From Clostridia bacterium (lineage in GTDB: Bacteria; Bacillota; DSM-521; Neomoorellales; SLTJ01), in the NCBI GenBank assembly GCA_004347685.1, contig SLTJ01000009.1, positions 1 through 32,345 on the forward strand: 32,345 nt of DNA, given 5' to 3'. Within the stretch, counting starts at the first letter, position 1, and each line of letters opens with the position of its first letter. The notes under the pieces were generated by a model, which saw only the letters and a program-made list of their open reading frames with translations, made no database searches and was not told the DNA's origin. Below, piece after piece: positions 766-31,559 of this stretch. A program made the position numbers and the translations under genes.

Positions 766-2288
766 GCTGTCTCCTTGTCATGGTCATCCTGTCGTCTCTG
801 AAAGTGACTATAACAAGCCAGTCCAACCATGAGTATGTAGTTAAGAGTAGGATTAATTGTAGAATCCTCCGTCAAGGCTAGAATGAGATAAGCCAGGAAA
901 ATACCTAGGACGGGTAGTAGTCTGCCAGAGTACGAATACACCTTCCGCTGTATGATAAATACCTTACACGCAGCAGTCAAAACCAGATACGCAAGAAGAA
1001 CGGCGGGAACTAAACCACTTGCCCCAGCCAGAAATATGAATCCATTGTGCGAGGCCCCGCTTCCAACTGCACCGCTAATTTGATATTTGAAACCCTCGCT
1101 TCCATAACCAAGGAAAGGCTTGGCCTCTATCAGCGCGATTCCTTTCTTATATGTCTCCACCCTCACGAGTACCGACGTGTCTTCATAAAAGGTGGGTAAG
1201 GTTGAGGCACGGGCCGCGGCCATCTCTAACACGTTTGGCATCCACTTTGCCGCTGTCAGATATGCCAAAGCGACGGCACCAACAAGTACGCTCATGGCTA
1301 TCAGCGTTTTGGAGAGCCTACCGGCCTTTCCCAACATAACAAGGGTAAGTGCCCCTGACACAACGATAGCCGTACGCGTGCCTGTACCTAATATCGCTGC
1401 TATGATCAAAAGCAGACATACTATCACGATGCTAAACATAATTTTGCTTTTCTTGTTACCGGAGATAATATATGCCAAGACAAACATGAACGCAAAAACA
1501 AGGTTTTGGGCCAGAGCATTGGGGTGACCAATATTGCCGGTAGCTCTATAAACGCCGCCAGTGGAAATTACTTTCATACTGGAATCAGCCAAGAACATAC
1601 GGCCTAAGGTTTGGTTAATATTTTCTACCAGGTCAAATCCGCCCAAATAAAATCCTAGCTGTTGTACCAGTGAAATAATGGCAACGACAGCCATCCCCGC
1701 AACAAAGCCGATCGTAACAGAATTTAATAGTAGGTGTTGGGGCTTATAGAAGGCTAGGCTAGTCCTCACATAAAAATATACTATGACCGCCTCTAACCAC
1801 CTGAGTACGTAAGAGATACTTCGTGGTGCATCAATAAACGAGGAAGTGTTTAGGAGAGAAAGGGCAAGGAATGCAGCAAATCCCAAGACCAAGTAGTCAT
1901 TAATCACCGACAATGGGCGCGGAATAATACTCTTTGTTCGAAGCAAAGAAGGGAGCATACAGACTACAAATAGATCGCTCATCCTAATAGAATAACTCTG
2001 GATGGGAAAGAAAAGGTCGGCGGCGACAAAATAGAAGAATAGCCCTACAAACAGCCCGTTATTAGCAGATCTACATCTTTCCAAAGCCCAGCAAACCAAA
2101 AGGGCCAATGTGGCAATGAATAGGTACATACTTATGCCCGCCGACAAAGACCCTAGTGCTACAGCCAGGAGGACCACAGCGGGAATACGCGTAGCGGAAC
2201 GGTGCAGCAGCCCAGGTTCTAAATGGTTAGTTCGAGGATTCAAAATACCTGTCCCCCACAAGAAAGGCTTATTCAAATTCGTGTCCAC
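717..2288 (-). CDS. O-antigen ligase / polymerase family membrane protein
   Basis: This 523-residue protein has about 10-12 hydrophobic segments and the features of the O-antigen ligase (Wzy_C/WaaL) family. There is a GTGTRTA motif at about residue 300, equivalent to the STRS region. A large outer loop contains RVETYKKGIALIEAKPFLGY, and a following ASHNGF stretch carries the conserved His-Asn. Such enzymes polymerise lipid-linked repeats or transfer glycan to an acceptor at the outer membrane-leaflet face. The start is a GTG overlapping the upstream glycosyltransferase by 16 bases, with no obvious ribosome binding site, which suggests translational coupling. The last ~25 residues (from about QRRQDD) are hydrophilic and may be fused from the adjacent glycosyltransferase remnant. 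Whether it is a ligase or a polymerase cannot be decided from sequence. Confidence 0.85.
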   Translation of the reverse strand: MDTNLNKPFLWGTGILNPRTNHLEPGLLHRSATRIPAVVLLAVALGSLSAGISMYLFIATLALLVCWALERCRSANNGLFVGLFFYFVAADLFFPIQSYSIRMSDLFVVCMLPSLLRTKSIIPRPLSVINDYLVLGFAAFLALSLLNTSSFIDAPRSISYVLRWLEAVIVYFYVRTSLAFYKPQHLLLNSVTIGFVAGMAVVAIISLVQQLGFYLGGFDLVENINQTLGRMFLADSSMKVISTGGVYRATGNIGHPNALAQNLVFAFMFVLAYIISGNKKSKIMFSIVIVCLLLIIAAILGTGTRTAIVVSGALTLVMLGKAGRLSKTLIAMSVLVGAVALAYLTAAKWMPNVLEMAAARASTLPTFYEDTSVLVRVETYKKGIALIEAKPFLGYGSEGFKYQISGAVGSGASHNGFIFLAGASGLVPAVLLAYLVLTAACKVFIIQRKVYSYSGRLLPVLGIFLAYLILALTEDSTINPTLNYILMVGLACYSHFQRRQDDHDKETALGHMGSAKPSAGAYP

Positions 2289-3487
2289 CGATCATGTCGG
2301 ACTACCGAATTATAAAGGTCTAAGTACTGCTCAAGGATCTTTCCGGGCTCAAAATCACGGGCCTTTGCTAAGCAAGTCGGTTTCATCTGTTCTGTCAGGC
2401 GGGGATTTTCGAGAAAAAGCTCAATTACCCTGGATAAATATTCCGGTCGGTCAGGGTCAAAGATAAAGCCCGTCTTTCCCTCCTCAACAATCTCTGGTAT
2501 GCCACCCCTACGGGCCGCTATAACAGGGACTCCATACGCGTAGGCCTCAAATACAGTTCTACCTAAAGGCTCATGCCACAGCGAAGGAACTACCAAAACG
2601 TCTACTTGCCGCAGCAAGTCTTCCGGCTTCACGAAGCCCAGGTACCTTATGCTAGAGGATGAAAACCGACTCCGGAGGTGATTTTCATACTCAATATTCC
2701 CTGTACCACCCAGCCATACCTCCACATGCCCATCTTTGAACTCATTCACCGCACTGAGGAGCAATTCCACACCCTTGGCAGGATGGAGCCGTCCAAGATA
2801 ACCGAGCCTTAGCGGTCGGGCGCCTTTAACCAAGGCCCGCTCCCCAGCCGTTTTCGGCGCCTCGTAAGCGTTGACGATGACCCGGCGCACCAAGGCATTG
2901 GGAAAATACCCCGCCTCAAGGTGCCGGCCTAAAAGAAAACTACTGATCCCCACAACTGCCTCAACCTGGCTAGAAAGGTAGCGCCTGGGCATGGCATAGA
3001 CCCTGCATGCAGCACATCTTCTTTCACAGTTATTTCCATGATTGAACATACTTGAGCGCGGGCAAAGCAGGTAGTAGTCTCGGATGGTGTGAACAAGCGG
3101 CAAGTGGTAGCGCCTTACGAGTGGCCAGACCGCGACCGAGAATCCCGCCAGGTTGTTCGTATGAACGACATCAGGCCTTTCGTCTTCAAGAATATTTATA
3201 AGGGGATGCGCCATAAAAAGGTTAAAAGTGTCTATAGCGTGCCAAAGGGGTTTGAGCCCGCCCGGATTCGCTCTCCCTTGAAACGGCCAGTAGACATTGC
3301 GCAACCCAAGGTAATATACCTTGACTCCGTTGACCCAATCCATATGTATTCCTGGTTCTGGCCGGGTACTTACCACTACTGAATCGTTCCCGGCACCCGC
3401 CAGGGCCTCTGCCAAAAACTGCACCGAGCGCTCAGCGCCGCCCAGGATACTAGGATAATAGAGGGTGTTAATCAGAAGTACCTTCAC
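2273..3487 (-). CDS. Glycosyltransferase family 4
   Basis: This is a GT-B fold sugar transferase of family 4. The N-terminal domain starts VKVLLINTLYYPSILGGAER, the glycine-rich acceptor loop of the family. The C-terminal domain has LGYLGRLHPAKGVELLLSA and then PSLWHEPLGRTVFEAYAYG, which holds the EX7E donor-binding signature. I prefer the GTG at 3487 to the upstream ATG at 3532. The sequence from the GTG matches the family N-terminus, and GAGGTG lies 11 bases before it, while the ATG has no ribosome binding site. A cysteine cluster (residues about 150-165, CERRCAACR) lies in the N-terminal domain, as seen in some family members. The sugar donor is unknown. Confidence 0.88.
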   Translation of the reverse strand: MKVLLINTLYYPSILGGAERSVQFLAEALAGAGNDSVVVSTRPEPGIHMDWVNGVKVYYLGLRNVYWPFQGRANPGGLKPLWHAIDTFNLFMAHPLINILEDERPDVVHTNNLAGFSVAVWPLVRRYHLPLVHTIRDYYLLCPRSSMFNHGNNCERRCAACRVYAMPRRYLSSQVEAVVGISSFLLGRHLEAGYFPNALVRRVIVNAYEAPKTAGERALVKGARPLRLGYLGRLHPAKGVELLLSAVNEFKDGHVEVWLGGTGNIEYENHLRSRFSSSSIRYLGFVKPEDLLRQVDVLVVPSLWHEPLGRTVFEAYAYGVPVIAARRGGIPEIVEEGKTGFIFDPDRPEYLSRVIELFLENPRLTEQMKPTCLAKARDFEPGKILEQYLDLYNSVVRHDRWTRI

Positions 3488-3561: not shown

Positions 3562-4620
3562 TTATACAATAGCCTCTACCTTGCCAAGCCGTCCGCGCCA
3601 TCCGGCTGCGGTTGCCCTCAGAACAACGGTGGCCGAAACGCAGGAAAGGTGCTTCCCTCGGAACCGGAGCGTAAGGACTTGGACATAGAGCAATAGGAGG
3701 TAGATGAACGCGTTGATTATGTATATATGGCTCCTCCTCCATCCCCATATATTCACCTCAAGAAAGACACGGTTGCGCACCGAGTAAAATAACCGGGCCA
3801 GGTTGCCTTCTTCGCCGTCCAAAAGGAGCCTCTTGGCACGCCAGCGGCTATCAGTGGGATGAGAAATGTGCCAAGACTTTTCCAGATCTTCTATATGACT
3901 TCCGGCAACAAGATAGATTGGATAGCCTAGCTTCACAAACCGTGCGGTGAATTCGTGGTCATCCCCGTACAGGTAGAAATCACTCTCTGGGAGGCCAACT
4001 TTAGATAAGATCTCCGTACTGAAAAACAGCCCGCCGAAAGGCGCATAAGGTACCTCAAGAGGGACATCCGCAACAAGCTGCCGGGCCGCTACATTACCAC
4101 CGTTTTTGAAAGCCCGACCCCATATCTTCCGCGGCAGGTCCAGCACAGAGAAACCCAAGAAACTATACTTCCTGCAAAATGCCTTTTCCACCGGAACCGC
4201 CCTGGCACGAAGGAGGTATTCCTCCCGGTCGTCGCGCAGAGACAGTAAGGTAGCCTGGGGTTCTACCATGTCGAGTGCTCTAATTAATTTTTCTAGGGCG
4301 TCGGGGGCCGGGAGATTATCATCGTCCAGACACCACACATATTTACATCCAAAGGCCGCGGCGGCTCTAATAGCCTCCCTATAACCAATAGCGGAGCCCA
4401 TATTCTCATTAAGAGTGACGATGTGCATCTTATGCTCCCTGTCAGCCAGGCCCACAAGAAGGCTTTTCGTCTCCTGGCTGGCCCCATTGTCGCAAACCAC
4501 AACCCGCAATATCTGGTCACCAGCCGTTTGCGAGAAGACTCCCTGGAGGACCTGAACAAGAAGACCGGATCTATTACCGTACGTCACAATGGCAACTGCT
4601 ACACTGATACCCGTATCCAT
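3562..4620 (-). CDS. Glycosyltransferase family 2
   Basis: This GT-A fold transferase of 352 residues opens with VAVAIVTYGNRSGLL. It has a nucleotide-binding VVVCDNGA strand, a metal-binding triple Asp in WCLDDDNLPAPDALE, and a C-terminal acceptor motif GDDHEFTARFVKLGYPI. A hydrophobic stretch near residue 310 (IINAFIYLLLLYVQVL) suggests a membrane anchor. The layout resembles GlfT-type galactofuranosyltransferases. Because a UDP-galactopyranose mutase gene lies two genes upstream, transfer of galactofuranose is a reasonable inference but is not proven. The start is an ATG preceded by GGATAGGGA. Confidence 0.87.
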   Translation of the reverse strand: MDTGISVAVAIVTYGNRSGLLVQVLQGVFSQTAGDQILRVVVCDNGASQETKSLLVGLADREHKMHIVTLNENMGSAIGYREAIRAAAAFGCKYVWCLDDDNLPAPDALEKLIRALDMVEPQATLLSLRDDREEYLLRARAVPVEKAFCRKYSFLGFSVLDLPRKIWGRAFKNGGNVAARQLVADVPLEVPYAPFGGLFFSTEILSKVGLPESDFYLYGDDHEFTARFVKLGYPIYLVAGSHIEDLEKSWHISHPTDSRWRAKRLLLDGEEGNLARLFYSVRNRVFLEVNIWGWRRSHIYIINAFIYLLLLYVQVLTLRFRGKHLSCVSATVVLRATAAGWRGRLGKVEAIV

Positions 4621-4676
4621 TCCCTATCCACTCCAAAGCGAGTGCAAGACACTGGCCTCAGATTGCACCTGATTCC

Positions 4677-5885
4677 TTACTGGGCCACCGCCTGTGCAGG
4701 ATTCGATAGCCCCATAATTTCCGCCATTCTTCCTACCGACCGTTCCCATGTATATAATTTTGCGTCCTTCGCAGCCTGAACCGAAAGGCTTTGCCTTAAC
4801 CCTTCGTTTTTATAAAGAGTAACGATTGCTTCTGCCATGGCTTTGGGCTCTTTCGGCGGTACTACATAGGCGTTGTGGAGATGGCGTGCGTAATCCTCCG
4901 TACCGAACGGGGTTGTAACCACCGCAGTTCCAGAGGCCATCGCTTCAAGAGGAAACAAAGGAAAGCTTTCATACCAAGACGAGGCCAATAGGACATGAGC
5001 AGAAGAGTAGGCCCGCCTCAATAAGCTTCCGGTGATAAACCCCAGGGGTACGTATGAGGCAATTTCGTTATCAGGAGGCAAGAGGGCATCGCCAAACACT
5101 CGCCATTCTAGGTTAGGTATTACTTCCCGTGCCAACCGGATGGCTTCCGCAGCGTCTTCAAAACCTTTCCATTTTGCATTTCTACCCCCGTAACTGACCA
5201 CAATAAACCGCTCATCTGTTGCGGGAGGATTTCCGTCTGGATAGAAATCCTCATGCCTTATCGCATTTGGACAGATTCTCGCCTCAATACCGAACTCCTC
5301 GTAGAGACGATCTGCCAACCAAGAAGAATTGGCGATTATTTGCAAGGGTAACCGGTAACTAAGCCAGGCATCAATAAATGCAAGATCTGGCTCATCGTAG
5401 TCAACCGAAAAATAAGGCTCGAAGTGTTGGGCAAAGTAAAACTTCTTGCCACTACCAAACATGTACGCCACTATAGCAGTCGAGTAGTGGGTTGCGAGGG
5501 TAATATCGGCCGGTGGTAAGTTATCGTACAAATTATCAATCTGCATGGCACGCTGGAAGCTATAGGGTAGGCCCTTTCTGAACCGGTGAAGGAAAAGCCG
5601 CATAAATGATTTTCCCACTTCTCTTTTGGATGTATTTTTATGAAGAAATTCTTGAAGAACCGAAATGGTTTTGGCAAAATCGTTCCAAAAGCTATTTCTG
5701 AGATGCATTATCTCAAACTTGGGCTTAAACCACTCAGGTTCGCTACTGGAAGTAATTGGAATAACCCTAACTTCATGACCCATCTCAGCAAGGCCATTAG
5801 CGTACTCGAAAACACACAAGAGCCCGCCAGAAAACTTGTTGCGTGGTATTCCGGAAACGATGATGTTTATCCGGGACATCTTCAA
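4677..5885 (-). CDS. Glycosyltransferase family 4 (WsaF-like)
   Basis: The N-terminus RINIIVSGIPRNKFSGG followed by LCVFEYANGLAEMGHEVRVI is typical of GT4-type rhamnosyl- or related transferases. The C-terminal half has VVSYGGRNAKWKGFEDAAEA and SSWYESFPLFPLEAMASGTA, the donor-binding EX7E region. The start is probably the TTG at 5885: it overlaps the stop of the upstream mutase gene by 4 bases, and GGAGG lies 7 bases before it. An ATG two codons later is the alternative. The close packing with glf supports one operon. Acceptor and donor are not known. Confidence 0.87.
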   Translation of the reverse strand: MKMSRINIIVSGIPRNKFSGGLLCVFEYANGLAEMGHEVRVIPITSSSEPEWFKPKFEIMHLRNSFWNDFAKTISVLQEFLHKNTSKREVGKSFMRLFLHRFRKGLPYSFQRAMQIDNLYDNLPPADITLATHYSTAIVAYMFGSGKKFYFAQHFEPYFSVDYDEPDLAFIDAWLSYRLPLQIIANSSWLADRLYEEFGIEARICPNAIRHEDFYPDGNPPATDERFIVVSYGGRNAKWKGFEDAAEAIRLAREVIPNLEWRVFGDALLPPDNEIASYVPLGFITGSLLRRAYSSAHVLLASSWYESFPLFPLEAMASGTAVVTTPFGTEDYARHLHNAYVVPPKEPKAMAEAIVTLYKNEGLRQSLSVQAAKDAKLYTWERSVGRMAEIMGLSNPAQAVAQ

Positions 5886-7000
5886 CCTGCTACCTCCTCA
5901 AAGAGCTGCAGCGCCTGGGCCACTGCCTGATCCATGTTGTAATATTTATAGTCGGCGAGCCGCCCCGCGAAAAGCACGGTATTCCCCAGCTTTCTAGCTT
6001 CCTTAAGATACGACAGATAGCGGTCGTAATTCTCCTGCCGTGGAACAGGATAATACGGCTCATTTCTGTCCGGTACGTATTCCTCCGGATATTCATAGGC
6101 AAGAGCGGTCCAGGGCACCCTCTGCCCAGCCAGGTGTTTGTATTCAGTAATTCTGGTGAAATCGTACTCGTTGGGGTAGTTTACCGTGCCCACCTCCTGG
6201 TACCACTCTTCATTAAAGGACACGAAGTCAAACCACAGGCTGCGATAGGGTAACGGCCCGTAGGCATAGTCGAAAAAAGCATCTAGCGAGCCGGTATAAA
6301 TCATGCGGTCAAACTTCACATCCTCAACGATCTCCTTATAGTCAGCGTTCAGGAGTACGTGTATGTTTGGGTGCTTGAGCATTCGCCGGAACATCGTCGT
6401 ATAACCTTCCATCGGTATGCCCTGATAGGCATCCTGAAAGTAACGGTCATCACGACCAACGCGTACCGGCACCCGGCCGGTAACCAGCGGGTCCAATTCC
6501 TCGGGCTTCAGACCCCATTGTTTTAAGGTATAGCCGTAAAAAACCCTTTGGTAAATGTATTCTGCCAGCACCTGTAGATCCATATCACCAGCCTCTTTCA
6601 GCTCAAGGATAGGTACGCTCGCGGAAAAGCCATAATTGGAGATTAGCGTGTCCTCAAGTTTCCCGGCGTACCTGGCCGGGAAAAGGGCATAAAGGGAGTT
6701 TAAGTTAAAAGGCACGGGTACCTTTTTGCCGTCAACCACCGCCAGCACCCGGTGCTGGTAAGGGCGCCAGCGAGTGAATTGGGATAGGTAATCCCATACC
6801 GCTCTGTTGCTAGTGTGAAAGACATGAGGGCCATAGCGGTGCACCAGGACACCCGCAGCATCATATTCATCGTACGCATTGCCGCCTATATGGTCCCGGC
6901 GCTCCACGACAAGTACCTTTTGACCCAATTGCGAGGCAATGCGCTCCGCAAGCGTACAACCCGTTATACCTGCCCCTACGATAAGCCAGTTTACATGCAC
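5882..7000 (-). CDS. glf: UDP-galactopyranose mutase
   Basis: This flavoenzyme converts UDP-galactopyranose to UDP-galactofuranose. The 372-residue length is normal. The N-terminal FAD-binding fold is clear (NWLIVGAGITGCTLAERIA), followed by the family signatures HIGGNAYDE and HRYGPHVFHT. Arginine and tyrosine residues of the substrate pocket occur in GRVPVRVGRDDRYF and in YKYYNMDQAVAQAL at the C-terminus. The start is a GTG at 7000. It indicates that the glycan made here contains galactofuranose, as found in several clostridial and actinobacterial surface polymers. The downstream glycosyltransferase gene overlaps by 4 bases. Confidence 0.95.
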   Translation of the reverse strand: MHVNWLIVGAGITGCTLAERIASQLGQKVLVVERRDHIGGNAYDEYDAAGVLVHRYGPHVFHTSNRAVWDYLSQFTRWRPYQHRVLAVVDGKKVPVPFNLNSLYALFPARYAGKLEDTLISNYGFSASVPILELKEAGDMDLQVLAEYIYQRVFYGYTLKQWGLKPEELDPLVTGRVPVRVGRDDRYFQDAYQGIPMEGYTTMFRRMLKHPNIHVLLNADYKEIVEDVKFDRMIYTGSLDAFFDYAYGPLPYRSLWFDFVSFNEEWYQEVGTVNYPNEYDFTRITEYKHLAGQRVPWTALAYEYPEEYVPDRNEPYYPVPRQENYDRYLSYLKEARKLGNTVLFAGRLADYKYYNMDQAVAQALQLFEEVAG

Positions 7001-7087
7001 AAATATCTCTACCTACTTTCCGAATAAACTCTGTGTGCCCCTCTTTTTACTGAAAAAAGATTTTTGCCCCCCTGCCTACCGGCCCTT

Positions 7088-8410
7088 TCATGGCTTACCC
7101 GACAAATGGCGGCCTATTAGCGGGTTTAGATTATCTAACGACAAAGTGGTTAACATTGCAGACGTAACAAATACCTCACTAGTTAAAACCGATAGAGCCA
7201 TCCCGGTAGCTTCTAACAAAGGCGCTAGTATAAGCGCCAGTACTATATTAATTAGCCCTGCGCTGAAAAGGATGGCTGTAAACTTTTTGTCCTTGCCAAA
7301 AGGTAACATTAGCTGGATACCTAAAATATTACTCACCCCTATGAGCAAGGGTAAAGCCGCCAGTACGCGGATTACCATTATCGAAGGCTCATATCCCGGT
7401 CCCAGAACTATTCTGACAATCATCGGGGCACCTGCAAATAGAGCAACAGATAAGATTAGGCCTATACCTCCCATGAAAAATAACATCCGTCTCCCCCACT
7501 GAAGGGCTAAGGCTTTTGATTCTGATGCCATTTTACTGAACCGTGGATATGCCGCTTGAGAAACCGGACTTAACATTCCGACTATCGCCTTCACGATCTT
7601 TTCGGCCGCGCTGTAATACCCAACAACGGTGTTGTTGGTCAATAGCCCTAGTATAAAGGCGTTTCCAACAGTATACAGGCTGACCGAAGCCTGGGATAAG
7701 AAGAGCGTCCATCCCCCAGCCATTTCCTCCCAAATGCCTCGCCAGGAGGGAAGCGCTGGCCGCAGCTTGAACATATGAAACGCCACCACTACCCCGGCTA
7801 CACCAGCAGCAACAGCGCCGAGGCTGGTAAGGCCAGCGTAAAGCAGGTAATCGTCTGGCTGGTGAATAATGGTGAAAATACCAATAACAACCAGGAGACG
7901 CATAACCAGGTTTATCACCGAGATGGCAACCATTTTCTCCATCCCCTGGTAGAGCCATACTGGAAATAGTGTATTGCCTAAAACAGACCCATATAGAACA
8001 AACAACAGTGCTGCCATGTCGTGGAGCTTCGGAACTAGGCTAACTAAAACCAAAAGTACAACCATACCAGCAATGCAGAACAGCATTTTAGCTGCCCAGA
8101 CGTTAAATACTGTACGACTAATCGCTACCTGATCGCCACGGTTAACAGAAATTTTCCGGGTGGCTGATAACGCAAAACCATAGTCTACGAAAAGGGTAAA
8201 GTACGCCGTGAGACTTTGCCCAAAGGCTACCGTTCCATAGCCTGCCGGTCCTAAAACGCGAACCAAATACGGCACCGTAATAAGAGGCACTACATAATTA
8301 GCAATTTGAATGACGTATAAGGAGCCAGCATTCTTCGCCACTGAACTACGCAGTGCCGCTTTAAGTATTAGGTTCATATCTTGTCGTAACGTATGGATTG
8401 CCAAATTCAT
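7088..8410 (-). CDS. Oligosaccharide flippase (Wzx type)
   Basis: This 440-residue polytopic membrane protein belongs to the polysaccharide biosynthesis (MOP) flippase superfamily. The N-terminus has NAGSLYVIQIANYVVPLITV and PYLVRVLGPAGYGTVAFGQS, the hallmark of the family, and about 12 hydrophobic segments follow. It would move lipid-linked repeat units across the membrane before polymerisation by the O-antigen ligase-like protein encoded 5 kb downstream. The start ATG has only a weak ribosome binding site (TAGGGTAG). A second ATG 11 codons in is possible. The family does not reveal the transported sugar. Confidence 0.9.
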   Translation of the reverse strand: MNLAIHTLRQDMNLILKAALRSSVAKNAGSLYVIQIANYVVPLITVPYLVRVLGPAGYGTVAFGQSLTAYFTLFVDYGFALSATRKISVNRGDQVAISRTVFNVWAAKMLFCIAGMVVLLVLVSLVPKLHDMAALLFVLYGSVLGNTLFPVWLYQGMEKMVAISVINLVMRLLVVIGIFTIIHQPDDYLLYAGLTSLGAVAAGVAGVVVAFHMFKLRPALPSWRGIWEEMAGGWTLFLSQASVSLYTVGNAFILGLLTNNTVVGYYSAAEKIVKAIVGMLSPVSQAAYPRFSKMASESKALALQWGRRMLFFMGGIGLILSVALFAGAPMIVRIVLGPGYEPSIMVIRVLAALPLLIGVSNILGIQLMLPFGKDKKFTAILFSAGLINIVLALILAPLLEATGMALSVLTSEVFVTSAMLTTLSLDNLNPLIGRHLSGKP

Positions 8411-8502: not shown

Positions 8503-9495
8503 TTACTGCTTGGCTGCATTTTCGCTCCACCCGTTTAACCACTGCACTTCCTTGGCCACGCCGTCCTTTAAAGGGACACGGGGCTGGTATTCCAAAACCG
8601 ATCGGGCCTTATCTAGACAAGCCCAGGTGTGCCTTACGTCGCCCTTTTGAGTTTCCGCCTGTCGTATACGCACACCGTCGCTGAGGATTTCCTTTAATGC
8701 CTCCAACACTTGGGTTAGCGTTACGCGCGACCCCCCGCCGATGTTAAATACTTCACCGGGCGGGGCGTTAAGCGCCAGCAGGTTGGCCTCGATGATGTCG
8801 GAGACGTAGGTGAAGTCTCGGGTCTGCTGACCATCGCCGTAGGTCTCGATCTCTTTGCCCTCGAGGGCGGCCCGAATGAACTTGTAGAAGGCCATGTCCG
8901 GCCGCTGGCGAGGGCCGTAAACGGTGAAGTAGCGCAGGGAAACCGTTGGCACTTGAAAGTTCTTCCAATAAAGATAGCACAGGTGCTCGGCGGCCAGCTT
9001 GGTCACCCCATAAGGGGATACCGGGCGGCATACAGCGTCCTCCCGCATGGGCAACTGATCAGTATCGCCGTAAACCGAGGAACTGGAGGCGTAGATGAAT
9101 CTCTTGATGTTTTCTTTACCTTTGCAGACCTCGAGCAAAAGCTGCGTGGCTAGGACGTTGTTTCTAACATAGACCTCAAAAGATTTTCCCCAACTGGCCC
9201 GCACTCCGGCCTGGGCCGCCTGGTGAAATACATAGTCCACCTCTGATAGAAGTTGCTCCAGAGAGGGACGTAAATCGGTCGTATCTCCCAGGCCCTTATC
9301 TAAGTCCAGGATATTAGCCTCAAGCAAACGAAAACGTGGGTTATCCCTGAACCCAGCTATGTTTCTCTCCTTATAAGCGCGGGGATAGTAGTCCTCAAAG
9401 GAATCTAGTCCAACGACCTCCCATCCGTCTTCCAGGAGCCTTTCACACAGGTGGGAGCCGATAAACCCGGCCGCCCCGGTAACTAGTGCCTTCAT
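8503..9495 (-). CDS. NAD-dependent nucleotide-sugar epimerase (GalE / UDP-glucuronate 4-epimerase type)
   Basis: An extended short-chain dehydrogenase of 330 residues. The NAD-binding GAAGFIGSHL motif is at the N-terminus. The catalytic region has YASSSSVYGD and then YGVTKLAAEHL, giving the Tyr-x3-Lys pair. SLRYFTVYGPRQRPDMAFYK is typical of the UDP-glucuronate epimerase / UDP-glucose 4-epimerase group, and GDGQQTRDFTYVSDI follows. The ATG is preceded by GGAGGAAATAGTGAC, a good ribosome binding site. It could supply UDP-galactose to the mutase encoded downstream, or UDP-galacturonate from the UDP-glucuronate made by the dehydrogenase at 11960-13267. Sequence alone does not decide between the two. 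Confidence 0.88.
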   Translation of the reverse strand: MKALVTGAAGFIGSHLCERLLEDGWEVVGLDSFEDYYPRAYKERNIAGFRDNPRFRLLEANILDLDKGLGDTTDLRPSLEQLLSEVDYVFHQAAQAGVRASWGKSFEVYVRNNVLATQLLLEVCKGKENIKRFIYASSSSVYGDTDQLPMREDAVCRPVSPYGVTKLAAEHLCYLYWKNFQVPTVSLRYFTVYGPRQRPDMAFYKFIRAALEGKEIETYGDGQQTRDFTYVSDIIEANLLALNAPPGEVFNIGGGSRVTLTQVLEALKEILSDGVRIRQAETQKGDVRHTWACLDKARSVLEYQPRVPLKDGVAKEVQWLNGWSENAAKQ

Positions 9496-9662
9496 GTCAC
9501 TATTTCCTCCACCAACAGCTCCGCTATCTTAAAAGTGTACTGCTACTATTCTTTGGCCAATTCTATGTATTACATAACCAAATCTTTCCAGAGCCGACAG
9601 TCATAGTGTTTCTCACCAAAATGACAAAAGGAGGCGTCCCGCGAAGATTAACGTCATCAAAC

Positions 9663-10967
9663 TTATGCATGATCCTTATAACGGATCAAACGTTCGTACT
9701 CGGCATCGTCTTGAAGTTTGCCAGCCAGAAAATCTACCCATTCTTGGGTATAAACGAAGTCATTATGAACTTCATCAAACTGGCAAAACTCGGTTTCACA
9801 CCCTTCTGCCGTCTTTTGGCGGGGCCGGACATTATACATTTTCCAGGCATTAACGTGTTCAGGAATGATCCTAAAAACCTTGCCAATCCTGGCCTGAACT
9901 TGCTCAGCTACTTTCTTTGGGGAGTATTTGCCGACGTTAACCGCCTGAACGACCCTGCTTTTGATTAGCACAATGTCCTGTTCATACTGTTCCATCTCAG
10001 AGGGGTTATCGGGATCATACTTAATGAACTGAACACAGTAGTCTGCCGACTTAGCATGGTTTCCGAGCATCGGAACAAGAAATACACGGAAACTAAACTC
10101 AGGCCTGGCAACAATATCATCTGGAAGGAGATCCTTATAACGTTTAATAAAAGATCGGACTTCTTCGTATTCTTTACTTTGCAATCGCCTTTTCGCACTT
10201 ACCTTCTGTTTTAACGACGTGGTACTGAACTGCAGCGAGAAAGCTAAAGTCTGATTGAGAGCGTAATATTCACCAAAGTTCTCAACCAGAAACTTCTCGT
10301 AGTTCAGCAGCGCCGCCTGACATTCCCCAGCGACTTCCCAATCAATAGCGGGAAGGTACCTGTGTTCGATCTTGTCTCGCAACCCAACGAGGAATTCAAT
10401 GTTCGCCCTCTCAGCGCAGTTACGGTCGCCGTAAAATGCGTTTAGGCATTTCCGAATATCCCAAGCTCGACGTTCCCCGTCTTCGGCTAAGAGGTATCTA
10501 CCCTCTTCATCTTTATAGAAATACTCCTGACCATTCTTTTCAAAATATGCATGAAGGATAGACGTCCAAGCGATGGTCATAAAAACAGTATAGCCATGCG
10601 ATCGAAACATGGACAACGGGTTATTATAGACCTGGACTGCTAGTAATGCCGCTTCCCTAGACTTATTAACCAAATCCTCAACACGTCTTGGCAGGACTGG
10701 TCGCAATGGATCAATAAATAGCTCGACCTTCTGCGAATGCAACCGTATAAATGCCTCCAGGGGGAGATCGGTTATACCTTCAACCCGGTACTTCCCGTCT
10801 GCCTCTTTAACGATAAACTGAGACCATTTCTTGCTCAGGTAAATTTCTATTGTCGATCGCTTCCAGCCACTCCTGGCTTCTAATTCTTCTAAAGTAAACG
10901 TCTCCCCTAATCTCTCTTTCTCGGTGAAGAATTCATAGGCTTTCATACAGTAGCTTGTCGTCCCCAC
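9663..10967 (-). CDS. DUF3644-type protein with HEPN-like RxxxxH motif
   Basis: This 434-residue protein resembles DUF3644 proteins, which are usually uncharacterised. Residues 1-60 look like a winged-helix DNA-binding domain. Residues 85-240 are mostly helical and contain R197-DKIE-H202, the RxxxxH pattern of HEPN ribonucleases. The C-terminal region has AWKMYNVRP and FVYTQEWVDFL. GTG at 10967 is a good start, since GGGGGTGATT lies just upstream; an ATG 7 codons later is possible. It sits between glycan genes although it has no obvious glycan role, so it is probably an inserted defence or stress gene. The HEPN link is my inference from the motif, not a database result. Confidence 0.7.
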   Translation of the reverse strand: MGTTSYCMKAYEFFTEKERLGETFTLEELEARSGWKRSTIEIYLSKKWSQFIVKEADGKYRVEGITDLPLEAFIRLHSQKVELFIDPLRPVLPRRVEDLVNKSREAALLAVQVYNNPLSMFRSHGYTVFMTIAWTSILHAYFEKNGQEYFYKDEEGRYLLAEDGERRAWDIRKCLNAFYGDRNCAERANIEFLVGLRDKIEHRYLPAIDWEVAGECQAALLNYEKFLVENFGEYYALNQTLAFSLQFSTTSLKQKVSAKRRLQSKEYEEVRSFIKRYKDLLPDDIVARPEFSFRVFLVPMLGNHAKSADYCVQFIKYDPDNPSEMEQYEQDIVLIKSRVVQAVNVGKYSPKKVAEQVQARIGKVFRIIPEHVNAWKMYNVRPRQKTAEGCETEFCQFDEVHNDFVYTQEWVDFLAGKLQDDAEYERLIRYKDHA

Positions 10968-10992
10968 TTAGAAATCACCCCCGCACCACGCG

Positions 10993-11181
10993 CTAGACCA
11001 AGGGCCCGGCCCGGAGGAGCTTACAGCTGTGGCCGTTGGGCGTAGAGAGAAAATCCAGTGCCCGGATATCCTTGGGGAAGCAGGAGCCGCCATAGCCGAT
11101 GCCCGCCGCGAGAAAGCTGAAGCCAACGCGCGGGTCCAGGCCGACGGCCCGGCTCACATTGGTGATGTCTGCGCCCAGCTT
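10993..11181 (-). pseudogene. UDP-glucose 6-dehydrogenase remnant
   Basis: Translation in one minus-strand frame gives about 62 residues that match the middle of UDP-glucose dehydrogenase: KLGADITNVSRAVGLDPRVG, then the catalytic GYGGSCFPKDIRALDF. It ends at a TAG. The same region occurs in the intact dehydrogenase gene at about 12440-12600 but is clearly diverged, so this is an old fragment or comes from a second dehydrogenase. Its upstream edge abuts the stop codon of the broken MazF gene exactly. It has no start codon and is not functional. Confidence 0.8.
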
Positions 11182-11517
11182 TTAAAGATACCCGAGTAGG
11201 CTTCGATAAGCGGTAAGCAAGGCTGCCGGGTGGATTACGTCTATCTTCGCCTTAATATCGCAGAGGAAAAACGACTAAAGCTGCCTCTTTGACGGTTTTT
11301 CCGGGCCTACGGTCTCCCAGTCGCTAACCAGAACGTCGTCACCTTTAGCCGGTTTGCTGGAAATTGGGAGAACAATGTACCTACCTTGGTCATTAAGATG
11401 CTCGCGGCTCACTACTACCGCCGGGCGTACCTTGCTTAGCGGCCTGCCAGTGCCTCGCTCAAGCCAGGGAATGTTCACCAACACCACGTCGCCGAAGCAA
11501 TAGTAGTTCTTGCTCAT
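11182..11517 (-). pseudogene. MazF/PemK-like toxin with internal stop
   Basis: The first 80 codons match the MazF-like toxins at 23206-23541 and 28280-28615 (FGDVVLVNIPW, GRPLSKVRPAVVVS). A TAG at 11275-11277 replaces the glutamine codon found in those copies. The frame then continues homologously to the same end (HPAALLTAYRSLLGYL, TAA at 11182-11184). The missing 31 residues form the last strand and helix of the fold, so the toxin is probably inactive. The antitoxin gene overlaps its 5' end by 59 bases, as in the other two copies. Confidence 0.85.
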
Positions 11518-11644
11518 ATAGCCGGTCTACTTTCTCATCCTCAATGTCATCGTAAAGCAGGCTAGCGCTCCGGCGTACCAGCTCGGCCGCCTCCAGGTCG
11601 ATATACCTACCCTCTGCCATGATGCGCTTTTCTTCCCGCCTCAT
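11459..11644 (-). CDS. Putative antitoxin of a MazF-like toxin (family 1, older copy)
   Basis: This small acidic protein of about 61 residues contains ELVRRSASLLYDDIEDEKVD and ends RRRGVGEHSLA. Near-homologues lie at 23483-23668 and 28557-28742, always directly upstream of a MazF-like toxin and overlapping it by exactly 59 bases. That layout is typical of a coupled antitoxin-toxin pair, but I do not recognise the family. ATG at 11644 is chosen because AGAGGTGAT lies just before it. The predicted -10 box is at 11664-11669, so the 5' leader would be only about 13 bases. With the toxin broken, this antitoxin may be an orphan. Confidence 0.65.
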   Translation of the reverse strand: MRREEKRIMAEGRYIDLEAAELVRRSASLLYDDIEDEKVDRLYEQELLLLRRRGVGEHSLA

Positions 11645-11663
11645 AGAGATCACCTCTGTCCCG

Positions 11664-11692
11664 ATTATACCACCTGCCCTACCGGGCTACAA
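11664..11692 (-). promoter_or_regulatory. Hub promoter repeat R1
   Basis: The minus-strand sequence has TTGTAG, a 17-base spacer and TATAAT preceded by TGG (extended -10). It matches five other copies in the window (R2-R6), though its -35 box has diverged from TTGGCG. It should drive the antitoxin gene that starts about 20 bases downstream. Confidence 0.75.
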
Positions 11693-11959
11693 GCGGCAGG
11701 TATTTTGCCATTCTAACCTCCCAGGCCTCTTTCCTACCGGTATCCAGTACTATTACTTCGAAACCGCAGAAACATATGAGTCGCGATCCAATGAATTGCT
11801 ACACAGCTATATGTACTATCATCACCCTAACCCGGACTAGCCGGAACCAAAAGGCACCCGACTTTCTTTCCATTTTGCGAAGATGTTTGCGGCATAGGCC
11901 CTATCGCACGTAAAACCGTGTCTGCCACTGTGATCACGCCATAGAAGGTACCTCTGATG
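11693..11959. other. Spacer between ugd and the TA module
   Basis: I see no gene, RNA or clear terminator here. The plus-strand frames in this stretch lack family features and a ribosome binding site. It lies directly after the ugd stop codon, so the precursor operon may end here, but no stem followed by a T-run is visible. Confidence 0.4.
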
Positions 11960-13267
11960 TTAATACTCCCTCACCTGTACCCGCCGGCCGATGCCTACGT
12001 ATACCAGGCCGCAGGCGAGGAGTTTTTCGATGGGCAGGCAGTTCCGGCCGTCCAACACTACCCGAGGCGGCTGCATGTGGTGGCTGGCTGCCTCCCAGTC
12101 CAGGGTGATAAATTCGGGCCATTCGGTGGCCACCACAGTGGCGTGGGCGTCGTCGAGGGCCTGAAGGGCAGTGCTGGTATAGGTGACATCCGGGGGCAAC
12201 ACCCTCCTGGCGTACTCCATGGCGGCCGGGTCGTAGGCCCGCACCCGGGCGCCTTCGTCCAGGAGCAGCCGGATGATGTCAATGGCCGGGGCCTCGCGTA
12301 CGTCGCCGGTGCCGGGTTTGAAGGCCAGGCCCAGGACGGCGATTTCTTTATCAGCCAGCCCCCCCAGGGCGGCGGCGAGCTTGCGCGCGGCTTCCAGCCG
12401 CTGGCGTTGGTTGACCTCGATTACGGCCTTAAGCAAATTGAACTGGTGGCCGTTCATGCTGGCGATAAAGTCCAGGCCGCTGGTGTCCTTGGGAAAGCAG
12501 GAGCCGCCGTAGCCCAAGCCGGCCTGCAGGAAGTGGGGGCCGATGCGCGGGTCCAGGCCCACGGCGTTGGCCACAAAAAGCACGTCCGCGCCCACAAGCT
12601 CGCAGAGGTGGGCGATTTCGTTAATGAAAGAGATCTTCGTAGCCAAGAAGGCGTTGGCCGCGTACTTGGTCATCTCCGCGCTGGCCACGTCCATGTGGAT
12701 AACCGGAGCTTCAATGTCCGCGTAGAGGGCCTTTACCTGCTCTACGACCGTCGGGTCGTCGGCCCCGATGACGATGCGGTCGGGGTGGTACCAGTCGTAG
12801 ACGGCCCGGCCTTCCCGCAGGAATTCGGGGTTGGAAACGTAACGGATTGGCACGCGCGCCTTGCTCAAGAAGCGCTCCTGAAGCTTGGCCCCGGTGCCGG
12901 GCGGGACTGTGCTTTTCATGACCAAGAGAACCGGCTCGGTGACCATCGCGGCCACTCCAGCCACTACCTCCTGCACCTGGGAGAGGTCCACCTTGCCGCT
13001 AGGCAGGGAGGGGGTACCCACAGCCACCATGGTGATGTCGGCGGGCGGGGCACCGGTTAGCTCCGCGGCAAAAGAAAGGCGGCCCATGCCGACAGCCTTA
13101 TGTAATAGCTCGTCCAGGCCCTCCTCGCGGAAGGGCACCTTCCCCTCTCTAAGACAGCTCAGCCGGGCCGGGTCCTTTTCCACGCGGGTAACTTGATGCC
13201 CGCTGTTGGCCAGCCCGCAGGCCGCTACCAGGCCCACGTAACCAGCGCCTACCACGGTTACGCGCAA
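11960..13267 (-). CDS. ugd: UDP-glucose 6-dehydrogenase
   Basis: It oxidises UDP-glucose to UDP-glucuronate with two NAD. The 435-residue length is normal for the family. The N-terminal Rossmann fold starts VTVVGAGYVGLVAACGLA. The catalytic cysteine is in GYGGSCFPKDTSGLDF at about residue 258. The C-terminal domain has LAFKPGTGDVREAPAIDII. The start is a TTG at 13267 with GGAG ten bases upstream; no ATG fits the family N-terminus. It is the last gene of the precursor operon, 70 bases after rmlB. UDP-glucuronate may feed the epimerase at 8503-9495 or be used directly in the glycan. Confidence 0.93.
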   Translation of the reverse strand: MRVTVVGAGYVGLVAACGLANSGHQVTRVEKDPARLSCLREGKVPFREEGLDELLHKAVGMGRLSFAAELTGAPPADITMVAVGTPSLPSGKVDLSQVQEVVAGVAAMVTEPVLLVMKSTVPPGTGAKLQERFLSKARVPIRYVSNPEFLREGRAVYDWYHPDRIVIGADDPTVVEQVKALYADIEAPVIHMDVASAEMTKYAANAFLATKISFINEIAHLCELVGADVLFVANAVGLDPRIGPHFLQAGLGYGGSCFPKDTSGLDFIASMNGHQFNLLKAVIEVNQRQRLEAARKLAAALGGLADKEIAVLGLAFKPGTGDVREAPAIDIIRLLLDEGARVRAYDPAAMEYARRVLPPDVTYTSTALQALDDAHATVVATEWPEFITLDWEAASHHMQPPRVVLDGRNCLPIEKLLACGLVYVGIGRRVQVREY

Positions 13268-23205: not shown

Positions 23206-23541
23206 TTAGAGGTACCCGAGTAGGCATCGATAGGCGGCGAGCAAGGCTGCCGGGTGCATCACACCTATCTTCGCCTGAACATCGTAAAGAATAAACGGCT
23301 GAATTTGCATCTTGGAGGGCTTTGCCAGGCCAGCGGCTTCCCATTCCGGAACCGGGATCTCATCGCCCTTGGCCGGTCTGCTGGAGATCGGGAGGACAAT
23401 GTACCTGCCTTGCTCGTTGAGATGATCACGGCTCACTACTACCGCGGGGCGAACCTTGCTTAGTGGCCTGCCGGTGCCCCGCTCAATCCACGGGATGTTC
23501 ACCAGCACCACGTCGCCGAAGCGATAGTAGTTTCTGCTCAT
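23206..23541 (-). CDS. MazF/PemK-like toxin
   Basis: A 111-residue protein of the PemK/MazF ribonuclease fold. It has RFGDVVLVNIPWIERGTGRP, SKVRPAVVVSRDHLN and RYIVLPISSRPAKGDEIPV. The C-terminal ILYDVQAKIGVMHPAALLAA completes the fold. ATG at 23541 is preceded by AGGAGG at about 12 bases. It starts inside its antitoxin gene with 59 bases of overlap and is identical in protein to the copy at 28280-28615. Confidence 0.87.
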   Translation of the reverse strand: MSRNYYRFGDVVLVNIPWIERGTGRPLSKVRPAVVVSRDHLNEQGRYIVLPISSRPAKGDEIPVPEWEAAGLAKPSKMQIQPFILYDVQAKIGVMHPAALLAAYRCLLGYL

Positions 23542-28279: not shown

Positions 28280-28615
28280 TTAGAGGTACCCGAGTAGGCA
28301 TCGATAGGCGGCGAGCAAGGCTGCCGGGTGCATCACACCTATCTTCGCCTGAACATCGTAAAGAATAAACGGCTGAATTTGCATCTTGGAGGGCTTTGCC
28401 AGGCCAGCGGCTTCCCATTCCGGAACCGGGATCTCATCGCCCTTGGCCGGTCTGCTGGAGATCGGGAGGACAATGTACCTGCCTTGCTCGTTGAGATGAT
28501 CACGGCTCACTACTACCGCGGGGCGAACCTTGCTTAGTGGCCTGCCGGTGCCCCGCTCAATCCACGGGATGTTCACCAGCACCACGTCGCCGAAGCGATA
28601 GTAGTTTCTGCTCAT
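28280..28615 (-). CDS. MazF/PemK-like toxin, duplicate
   Basis: The 111-residue product is identical to that of 23206-23541, including SKVRPAVVVSRDHLN. Everything said of that copy applies. Two identical toxins under identical promoters within 5 kb would act as one system with doubled dosage. Confidence 0.87.
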   Translation of the reverse strand: MSRNYYRFGDVVLVNIPWIERGTGRPLSKVRPAVVVSRDHLNEQGRYIVLPISSRPAKGDEIPVPEWEAAGLAKPSKMQIQPFILYDVQAKIGVMHPAALLAAYRCLLGYL

Positions 28616-31389: not shown

Positions 31390-31553
31390 CTTTACCGATC
31401 CCGCTATAGAACAGCGGGGCCGGGGGGCCATCGCAATACCAGAATAGGACTACGTCCCGGTCAGGCGGCAGTGTGGCTGCCCCAGCAGGTGCATGGATGC
31501 CCGCCAGCCCGCCAGGTGCTCCCGGGCGTTGGGGGTGTGCCGCCGCAAGCCAT
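31390..31553. repeat. Repeat A, copy 2
   Basis: Matches 194-358. The minus strand encodes LRRHTPNAREHLAGWRASMH, the end of the family 2 glycosyltransferase, but a 2-base deletion shifts its last codons. It ends precisely where the hicA region begins. Confidence 0.85.
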
Positions 31554-31559
31554 ACCAAG

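Follow-up and report, generated by a model that had tools for sequence, protein, structure and literature searches.

A DUF3644 protein with a predicted HEPN fold in a clostridial glycan operon is probably a stand-alone anti-phage ribonuclease

The window analyzed here, a 32,345-nucleotide stretch of a Clostridia bacterium genome (assembly GCA_004347685.1, contig SLTJ01000009.1), raises the question of what a DUF3644 protein does inside a glycan operon. The preliminary description ascribed a HEPN-type Arg/His motif and a preceding winged-helix-like domain to this protein, and proposed a single-gene abortive-infection nuclease. The gene indeed lies within the operon and on the same strand, with the epimerase (8503-9495) adjoining it on one side. 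On the other side, the MazF gene reported as broken contains one stop and is separated from the DUF3644 gene by a 57-residue fragment of a UDP-glucose dehydrogenase. The features are collected in Table 1. Our preferred reading, to which we assign a probability of roughly 0.7, is a ribonuclease of winged helix/HEPN/winged-helix-like architecture that works as a stand-alone anti-phage unit of the abortive-infection type.

Table 1. Coordinates of the DUF3644 gene, its domains and its flanks in the window, and of comparable features at the loci of relatives (L numbers)
Feature	Position	Strand	Basis or remark
DUF3644 / PDC-S19 gene	9663..10967	(-)	434 aa, GTG start, no internal stop
GGGGGTGA, ribosome-binding-site-like, 7 nt 5' of GTG	10975..10982	(-)	read from the sequence; putative
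N-terminal winged helix, residues 1-79	10731..10967	(-)	model; CymR 3t8t Z 7.7, 77 aligned, 2.4 A
HEPN domain, residues 94-234	10266..10688	(-)	model; 2hsb Z 10.2, 120 aligned, 2.7 A
Codon of R197 (Rx4H motif)	10377..10379	(-)	94/94 sequences
Codon of H202 (Rx4H motif)	10362..10364	(-)	94/94 sequences
C-terminal winged-helix-like domain, residues 350-417	9717..9920	(-)	models; Xrn1 2y35 Z 7.9, 79 aligned, 2.7 A; tentative
Second UDP-glucose dehydrogenase gene fragment, 57 aa, upstream flank of the DUF3644 gene	11008..11178	(-)	61% identical to 11960-13267 across 57 aa
MazF/PemK toxin gene, one internal stop; outside the DUF3644 unit	11185..11517	(-)	Pfam, repeat comparison
Methylase + restriction-enzyme pairs of relatives	L023 11334-13501; L028 5552-7670; L045 5201-7343; L022 11711-13882; L027 1939-4122		
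One-ORF integron cassettes of relatives	L041 9949-11317; L082 around 1780-2930		

The frame is intact, with an in-frame ATG at codon 8, and its assignment to the DUF3644 family is borne out by two profiles. Pfam DUF3644 (PF12358) matches residues 99-279 with an E value of 5.6e-51 (173.2 bits against a cut-off of 27.6) and is the only Pfam domain of the protein, and the PADLOC candidate family PDC-S19 (PDLC04950) matches residues 92-430 with an E value of 1.6e-117 (390.7 bits). The window protein differs from these models in its N-terminal winged helix, which lies outside both matched stretches, and in its solitary position in a glycan operon. No NCBIfam family is matched at E<=0.001, and the best sequence matches in the PDB are not convincing, having E values of 0.61 for the protein itself and 0.46 for a profile of 74 sequences. 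The DUF3644 match is the single one in the assembly; among 398 genomes drawn from the phylum, one of them its own, nine have a match, seven of them above the cut-off. A blastn search with a Klebsiella homologue against 20,395 E. coli records returned no match, and a promoter and terminator scan gave counts at the level of chance.

The window protein contains two Rx4H spacings, at R197 and R366, where 0.56 is expected, and 44% of 2000 shuffles of the protein contain at least one. The spacing alone was therefore rejected as evidence for a HEPN domain, and it is conservation that decides whether the motif is real. For this count, 100 frames were reduced to 94 distinct sequences by dropping L007-L009 (weak or fragmentary), L083 (a split gene) and identical copies. 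All 94, the window protein included, keep R197, H202, N115, N189 and N222, which makes R197/H202, as opposed to the R366 spacing, the conserved one. Since one of the two peptide patterns used in the genome scan was placed around the Rx4H motif, the sources of the conserved sequences were counted separately: 32 of the other 93 sequences were found independently of the motif (21 GTDB loci by the second pattern only and 11 by HMM or tblastn searches), and both residues are kept in all 33 such sequences when the window protein, a twelfth of the latter group, is included. The more distant L007, outside the alignment, reads R-D-x3-H and so has the R-x4-H spacing as well. The residue after the arginine is N in 89 of the 94 sequences and D in the window protein (D198), as also in L005 and L007. 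In the part of Anantharaman et al. (PMC3710099) consulted here, N, D or H are the usual residues at this position, and the window motif R197-D198-x3-H202 fits the HEPN pattern of Rx4-6H with a polar residue after the arginine. The HEPN-like spacing reported at R197 and H202 is thus real, and both residues pass the conservation check proposed for them.

An AlphaFold2 model of the window protein, built from 74 sequences, has a mean pLDDT of 87.8 and places a winged helix at residues 3-62 and the HEPN helices at residues 94-115, 122-144, 185-201 and 209-231; short extended segments lie between the second and third HEPN helices. R197 and H202 lie at the end of the third helix, which is the active-site place of the HEPN superfamily according to the consulted text of PMC3710099. 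A plain Foldseek search of the PDB and of viral models gave no match at E<=0.001, and HEPN chains are absent among the 50 Foldseek matches listed, appearing only in a second look with VIA-align. In that comparison, the eight highest-Z chains are all HEPN proteins or HEPN-containing Csm6, with Z values of 8.0-10.2 over approximately residues 86-242: AF0298 (2hsb) is the best, followed by Csm6 (6tug, Z 8.9) and by the HEPN-toxin entries 6m6w, 7bxo, 5yep, 6m6u, 8xeh and 8yuf (Z 8.0-8.8). By VIA-align's own note, Z values of 8-10 are moderate for a helical bundle. The predicted fold is that of the HEPN superfamily, as the preliminary description had anticipated, and the winged-helix-like domain that it placed before the HEPN domain is backed by the model and by its best match, CymR. 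This N-terminal domain also resembles many winged-helix regulators in VIA-align, and at least 60 residues precede the HEPN domain in 36 of the 94 sequences, a count of length rather than of fold in each. When modeled by itself (pLDDT 84.1), the C-terminal part contains a winged-helix-like unit at residues 350-417, which best matches residues 864-964 of Xrn1, a stretch that we take to be a winged helix, and then the MerR-type PbrR (Z 4.8). Residues 283-345 are largely of low confidence in the models.

The HEPN identity of the family and its candidate status in PADLOC are already known; a family overlapping DUF3644 appeared in print as a HEPN family in 2013 (Anantharaman et al., PMC3710099). In the consulted part of that paper, the EC042_2821-type family is described as having a conserved Rx4-6H motif, a fusion to a wHTH domain in some members and a location in restriction-modification (R-M) operons. 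Compared with this description, the window protein is alike in its Rx4H motif and its N-terminal winged helix. However, residues 240-420 of EC042_2821 are assigned a REase fold there, whereas the window model is winged-helix-like at 350-417 and of low confidence over much of 283-345. Inspection by eye of the strongly conserved positions showed no D-(D/E)xK pattern, a result limited by the low confidence in that stretch. The location in an R-M operon is not shared by the window gene. PrrC and RloC, described in the same text as HEPN ribonucleases that act as a back-up of R-M systems or alone, carry an ABC-ATPase domain, whereas the window protein has DUF3644 only by Pfam. The HEPN-MNT toxins (SO_3166 and others) have the HEPN fold in common with the window protein, but the latter has extra domains on both sides, and no nucleotidyltransferase was found among the neighbors scanned. 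AF0298 is a single domain of 126 residues that typically lacks the motif histidine (PMC3710099, consulted part). Csm6, the HEPN domain of which aligns over 141 residues of the window model, belongs to type III CRISPR systems, whereas the window protein has no further Pfam domain.

In a tree calculated from the HEPN and C-terminal columns, a quick tree with long-branch warnings, the window protein falls in a clade of 11 (SH-aLRT 98). Seven of the ten other members are R-M-linked, with an R-M, methylase or Hma gene within three genes. Five of the ten (L022, L023, L027, L028 and L045) lie beside the same kind of type II module, which consists of a D12 N6-adenine methylase (PF02086) and a DUF6996/DUF6997/DUF7226 restriction enzyme (PADLOC REase_II, 6.2e-48, in L023). 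In L028 the genes overlap: DUF3644 at 3892-5187, a small gene at 5184-5555, the methylase at 5552-6388 and the enzyme at 6381-7670. The L027 pair lies on the strand opposite the DUF3644 gene. The linkage of this pair to winged-helix DUF3644 genes is seen in Bacillota and in one Bacteroidota genome. Additionally, the second and third genes upstream in L026 form an Hma pair, and L031 has an N6_N4 methylase on the opposite strand. Three members are without R-M neighbors: the sequence ends 462 bp after the gene in L024 and inside the gene in L062, and L025, where there is room, gave no hit.

The neighborhoods of this clade fit the main rival to our reading, a PrrC-like guard in which an R-M enzyme restrains the HEPN nuclease and inactivation of the R-M system by a phage sets it free. 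Under this model, the window copy would either respond to an R-M system that is not linked to it or have been left behind as a stranded remnant. The pairing of five of the ten relatives with the D12 methylase and the DUF6997 enzyme, two more standing by Hma or N6_N4 methylase genes, speaks for such a guard, as does the consulted text of PMC3710099 with its PrrC model and its proposal concerning HEPN proteins linked to R-M systems. We nevertheless consider it unlikely. The partners of DUF3644 genes belong to R-M types I, II, III and IIG and to Hma, which leaves no single partner interface. Furthermore, no D12 methylase was found in the window genome, where control genomes gave matches, and a search of it with the L023 restriction enzyme, run without a positive control, found nothing; other N6 and N4/N6 methylase matches are present. 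Two N6-methylase matches of this genome (G000 C13:72301-72765 and C1:155685-156005) each contain an internal stop.

A conserved gene of approximately 100 codons directly follows the DUF3644 gene in three of the five type II modules (L022 11272-11565, L028 5184-5555 and L027 about 1493-1769), the L027 copy being split into two frames; the L022 and L028 copies match no Pfam family. Such a gene might encode an antitoxin, and the DUF3644 protein could then be the toxin of a toxin-antitoxin pair, restrained by this or another neighbor or by its own N-terminal winged helix, with a role in maintenance or stress instead of phage defense. HEPN-MNT toxins are among the best fold matches, and a MazF remnant lies nearby. 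However, a tblastn search with the small gene matched neither the window nor seven clade loci (L023, L024, L025, L026, L031, L045 and L062, the sequences of L024 and L062 stopping close to or inside the DUF3644 gene), no nucleotidyltransferase family occurs in the scanned neighbors, and the MazF remnant is a separate repeat with three copies in the window. We regard a toxin-antitoxin pair as improbable.

Across the family, a genome scan of which the best 80 of 186 relatives were kept (L022-L101) was extended by 6 loci from viral contigs and by annotated plasmid and phage records. A gene for an R-M-type (I, II, III or IIG), methylase, Hma or DrmD-like helicase protein lies within three genes in 33 of 94 loci, a count that leaves out L001, L004, L017 and L059, and in 19 of the 57 loci with all six neighbors; 23 of the 61 loci without such a gene have fewer than six neighbors on the contig. 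These 61 loci count against our preferred reading, as does the label "R-M-linked" in being unclustered over the whole tree (26 changes, with 155 of 500 shuffles as low); such scatter suits frequent exchange of partners and gives ancient linkage no support. Genes of R-M type make up 55 of 481 near genes against 3 of 502 far genes (11 loci left out), an enrichment that is inflated because the seeds were picked from near genes. The PADLOC and Pfam tallies, which are free of this bias, compare 150 adjacent genes (of 155, five short or contig-edge genes being dropped) with 105 genes six places away. In both tallies 25 families are listed for each set, and overlapping models count one protein repeatedly. 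PADLOC families at E<=1e-15 number 230 in the former and 51 in the latter. In Pfam, the adjacent genes include N6_N4_Mtase (7), Eco57I (5), D12 (2) and C5 methylase (2), none of which is among the 25 listed of 125 for the distant genes. Overall, there are 92 Pfam families for the adjacent genes against 125 for the distant ones, so the adjacent genes are on the whole less well characterized. These R-M neighborhoods support the defense role suggested for the protein. Among the loci, L016, a viral contig, encodes a 760-residue DUF3644 protein (4367-6649) with approximately 400 extra N-terminal residues that match no Pfam family, and the Arsenophonus homologue L083 (9974-11229) is broken into three reading-frame pieces.

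R-M genes are absent around a second group of relatives, which occur in integrons of Gammaproteobacteria and appear to be mobile as single genes. When approximately 10 kb on each side of the gene are compared between Colwellia L041 and Shewanella L040, the only common segment of at least 300 bp is one of 1,461 bp at 95.4% identity, which holds just the DUF3644 gene and the flanking site sequence. L043 (Shewanella, with 261 bp upstream) matches L041 over 1,369 bp at 98.4%, and L036 has the same unit at approximately 91-92%. The matching end sites of an integron cassette are known as R' and R''. In L041, GTTAAATGGC precedes the gene and GCCATTTAAC follows it; the two are exact reverse complements, with one mismatch in L043. 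The end pair of L041 is followed by an attC-like hairpin (DNA fold of -18.0 kcal/mol against -9.3 for shuffles), and GGCGTTA occurs 11 times on both strands of this locus where 2.3 are expected. End pairs of the R'/R'' type were found at 7 of 98 homologue loci (L010, L036, L041, L043, L075, L077 and L082), whereas 50 random pairings of ends gave a mean of 0.66 and a maximum of 2 loci; L040, read by eye, is an eighth, missed by the script since its called start lies upstream.

Whole attC sites, sought by regular expression, are present several times in L041, L043 and L075; the search gave none for L010, L077 and L082 on the strand of the gene. By eye, the Luteimonas locus L082 has a shorter hairpin site after the gene that is repeated just before it, and in L077 a clear attC site was not found. 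L041, L043, L040 and L036 are one-gene cassettes, as are L010, L075 and L082 with fewer sites to check. L075 and L082 have the form of the protein without the N-terminal domain; an apparent N-terminal match upstream of L082 (query residues 9 to about 90) was discarded, as it passes through a stop and the preceding attC. No R'/R'' end pair surrounds the window gene. An integron-cassette HEPN family is listed as a separate row (PDB 3jrt) in the consulted part of PMC3710099.

Phages and their satellites form a third context. As a tblastn query, the window protein matches 37 phage records (25 from Streptococcus and 10 from Staphylococcus), and the copy from Staphylococcus phage B_UFSM4 matches 46. 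In the four records inspected, the satellites Javan127, Javan344 and Javan9 and phage B_UFSM4, the DUF3644 gene adjoins the integrase gene in the same direction. The spot beside the integrase is a usual place for cargo. The other side is occupied by a putative transcriptional regulator in Javan127, by a hypothetical protein and then a divergent putative regulator in Javan344 and Javan9, and by two small genes and a repressor in B_UFSM4. P4-like satellites are described as carrying HEPN genes among others in the consulted part of PMC9122126, in which DUF3644 does not appear. The one-ORF cassettes, and the three satellites in which the gene stands alone next to the integrase, agree with the single-gene character claimed for the system. 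As they carry the DUF3644 gene without R-M genes, they weigh against the guard model and favor autonomy.

The window copy itself is solitary and outside any R-M operon; it is also outside any defense island, which counts against our preferred reading. The MazF remnant beside it is a diverged copy of unbroken genes at 23206-23541 and 28280-28615 (-), which encode identical 111-residue proteins within a 658-bp repeat (99.4% identical DNA). The region of 13.5-32.3 kb contains many duplicated and partly decayed pieces, among them 17453-17867/27688-28102 (95%), 21559-21885/30326-30652 (99%) and 13828-14613/29541-30325 (77%); additionally, 194-363 is repeated at 31390-31557 (96%). Given the dehydrogenase fragment, the broken MazF gene and these duplications, the DUF3644 gene is at a recombination-scarred spot. 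The GC content is 45.1% in the DUF3644 gene, 54.8% in the epimerase gene and 63-65% in the dehydrogenase and dTDP-glucose dehydratase genes; the downstream glycan genes have 47-53%, so low GC alone does not mark the DUF3644 gene out. When 61 genomes were searched with the epimerase, a second genome of the genus was not among the matches listed, those from other genomes reaching at best 58% and 46% identity, and 9496-11700 gave a near DNA match of 39 bp in one plasmid record.

Such surroundings would also suit a decaying passenger without function. The dehydrogenase fragment and the broken MazF gene flank the DUF3644 gene amid many duplicated pieces, the Arsenophonus homologue is in three frames, and the end branch of the window protein is long (0.85 against a median of 0.4), which together with D198 makes drift possible. 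However, the window gene has a full-length frame, all five invariant residues and a sequence upstream that resembles a ribosome-binding site, and we consider decay quite unlikely. A working part in the glycan operon, such as a regulator acting through the winged helix, can be pictured from the position of the gene inside the operon on the same strand and from the resemblance of the winged helix to transcription factors. Of the 92 Pfam families matched by the 150 adjacent genes of relatives, the 25 listed include no glycosyltransferase, and a glycan role seems to us highly improbable. The window gene seems to be an orphan whose relatives form an R-M-linked clade, and to have no functional link to the glycan operon.

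In light of the R-M operons, phage satellites and one-gene cassettes of its relatives, the DUF3644 protein is most likely a stand-alone anti-virus device. As in characterized HEPN ribonucleases, two protomers would pair and bring their Rx4H motifs together in a single metal-independent RNase site, and the winged helices may bind nucleic acid and keep the nuclease off. Infection, signaled by phage nucleic acid or protein or, in the R-M-linked relatives, by neutralized restriction, would free the nuclease, which may then cut tRNA or mRNA and stop phage production at the expense of the cell. The fold, the active-site conservation and the defense contexts come from computation, and we infer the dimer, the RNA target, the trigger and the protection. 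A more far-reaching version, which we put forward tentatively as possible, takes DUF3644 proteins of the winged-helix/HEPN/winged-helix type to be RNases that sense phage on their own and whose single gene has been passed repeatedly among R-M systems of types I, II and III, Hma, DISARM-like, Gram-positive satellite and gammaproteobacterial integron contexts, with the winged helices responding to one shared sign of infection, for instance phage or damaged DNA; read in this manner, the protein would need no dedicated partner or antitoxin.

The literature collection searched by family name contained no experimental report on the DUF3644 family and no mention of PDC-S19 or DUF6997; DUF3644 and EC042_2821 are each named in one paper. 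The integron and type II contexts of DUF3644 are useful additions to what is known of the family, with no claim to a first sighting of the cassettes. The cassettes (L041 and L043), the Javan satellites and the type II module (L023, L028 and L045) make it testable whether an R-M partner is required by a HEPN effector of this kind.
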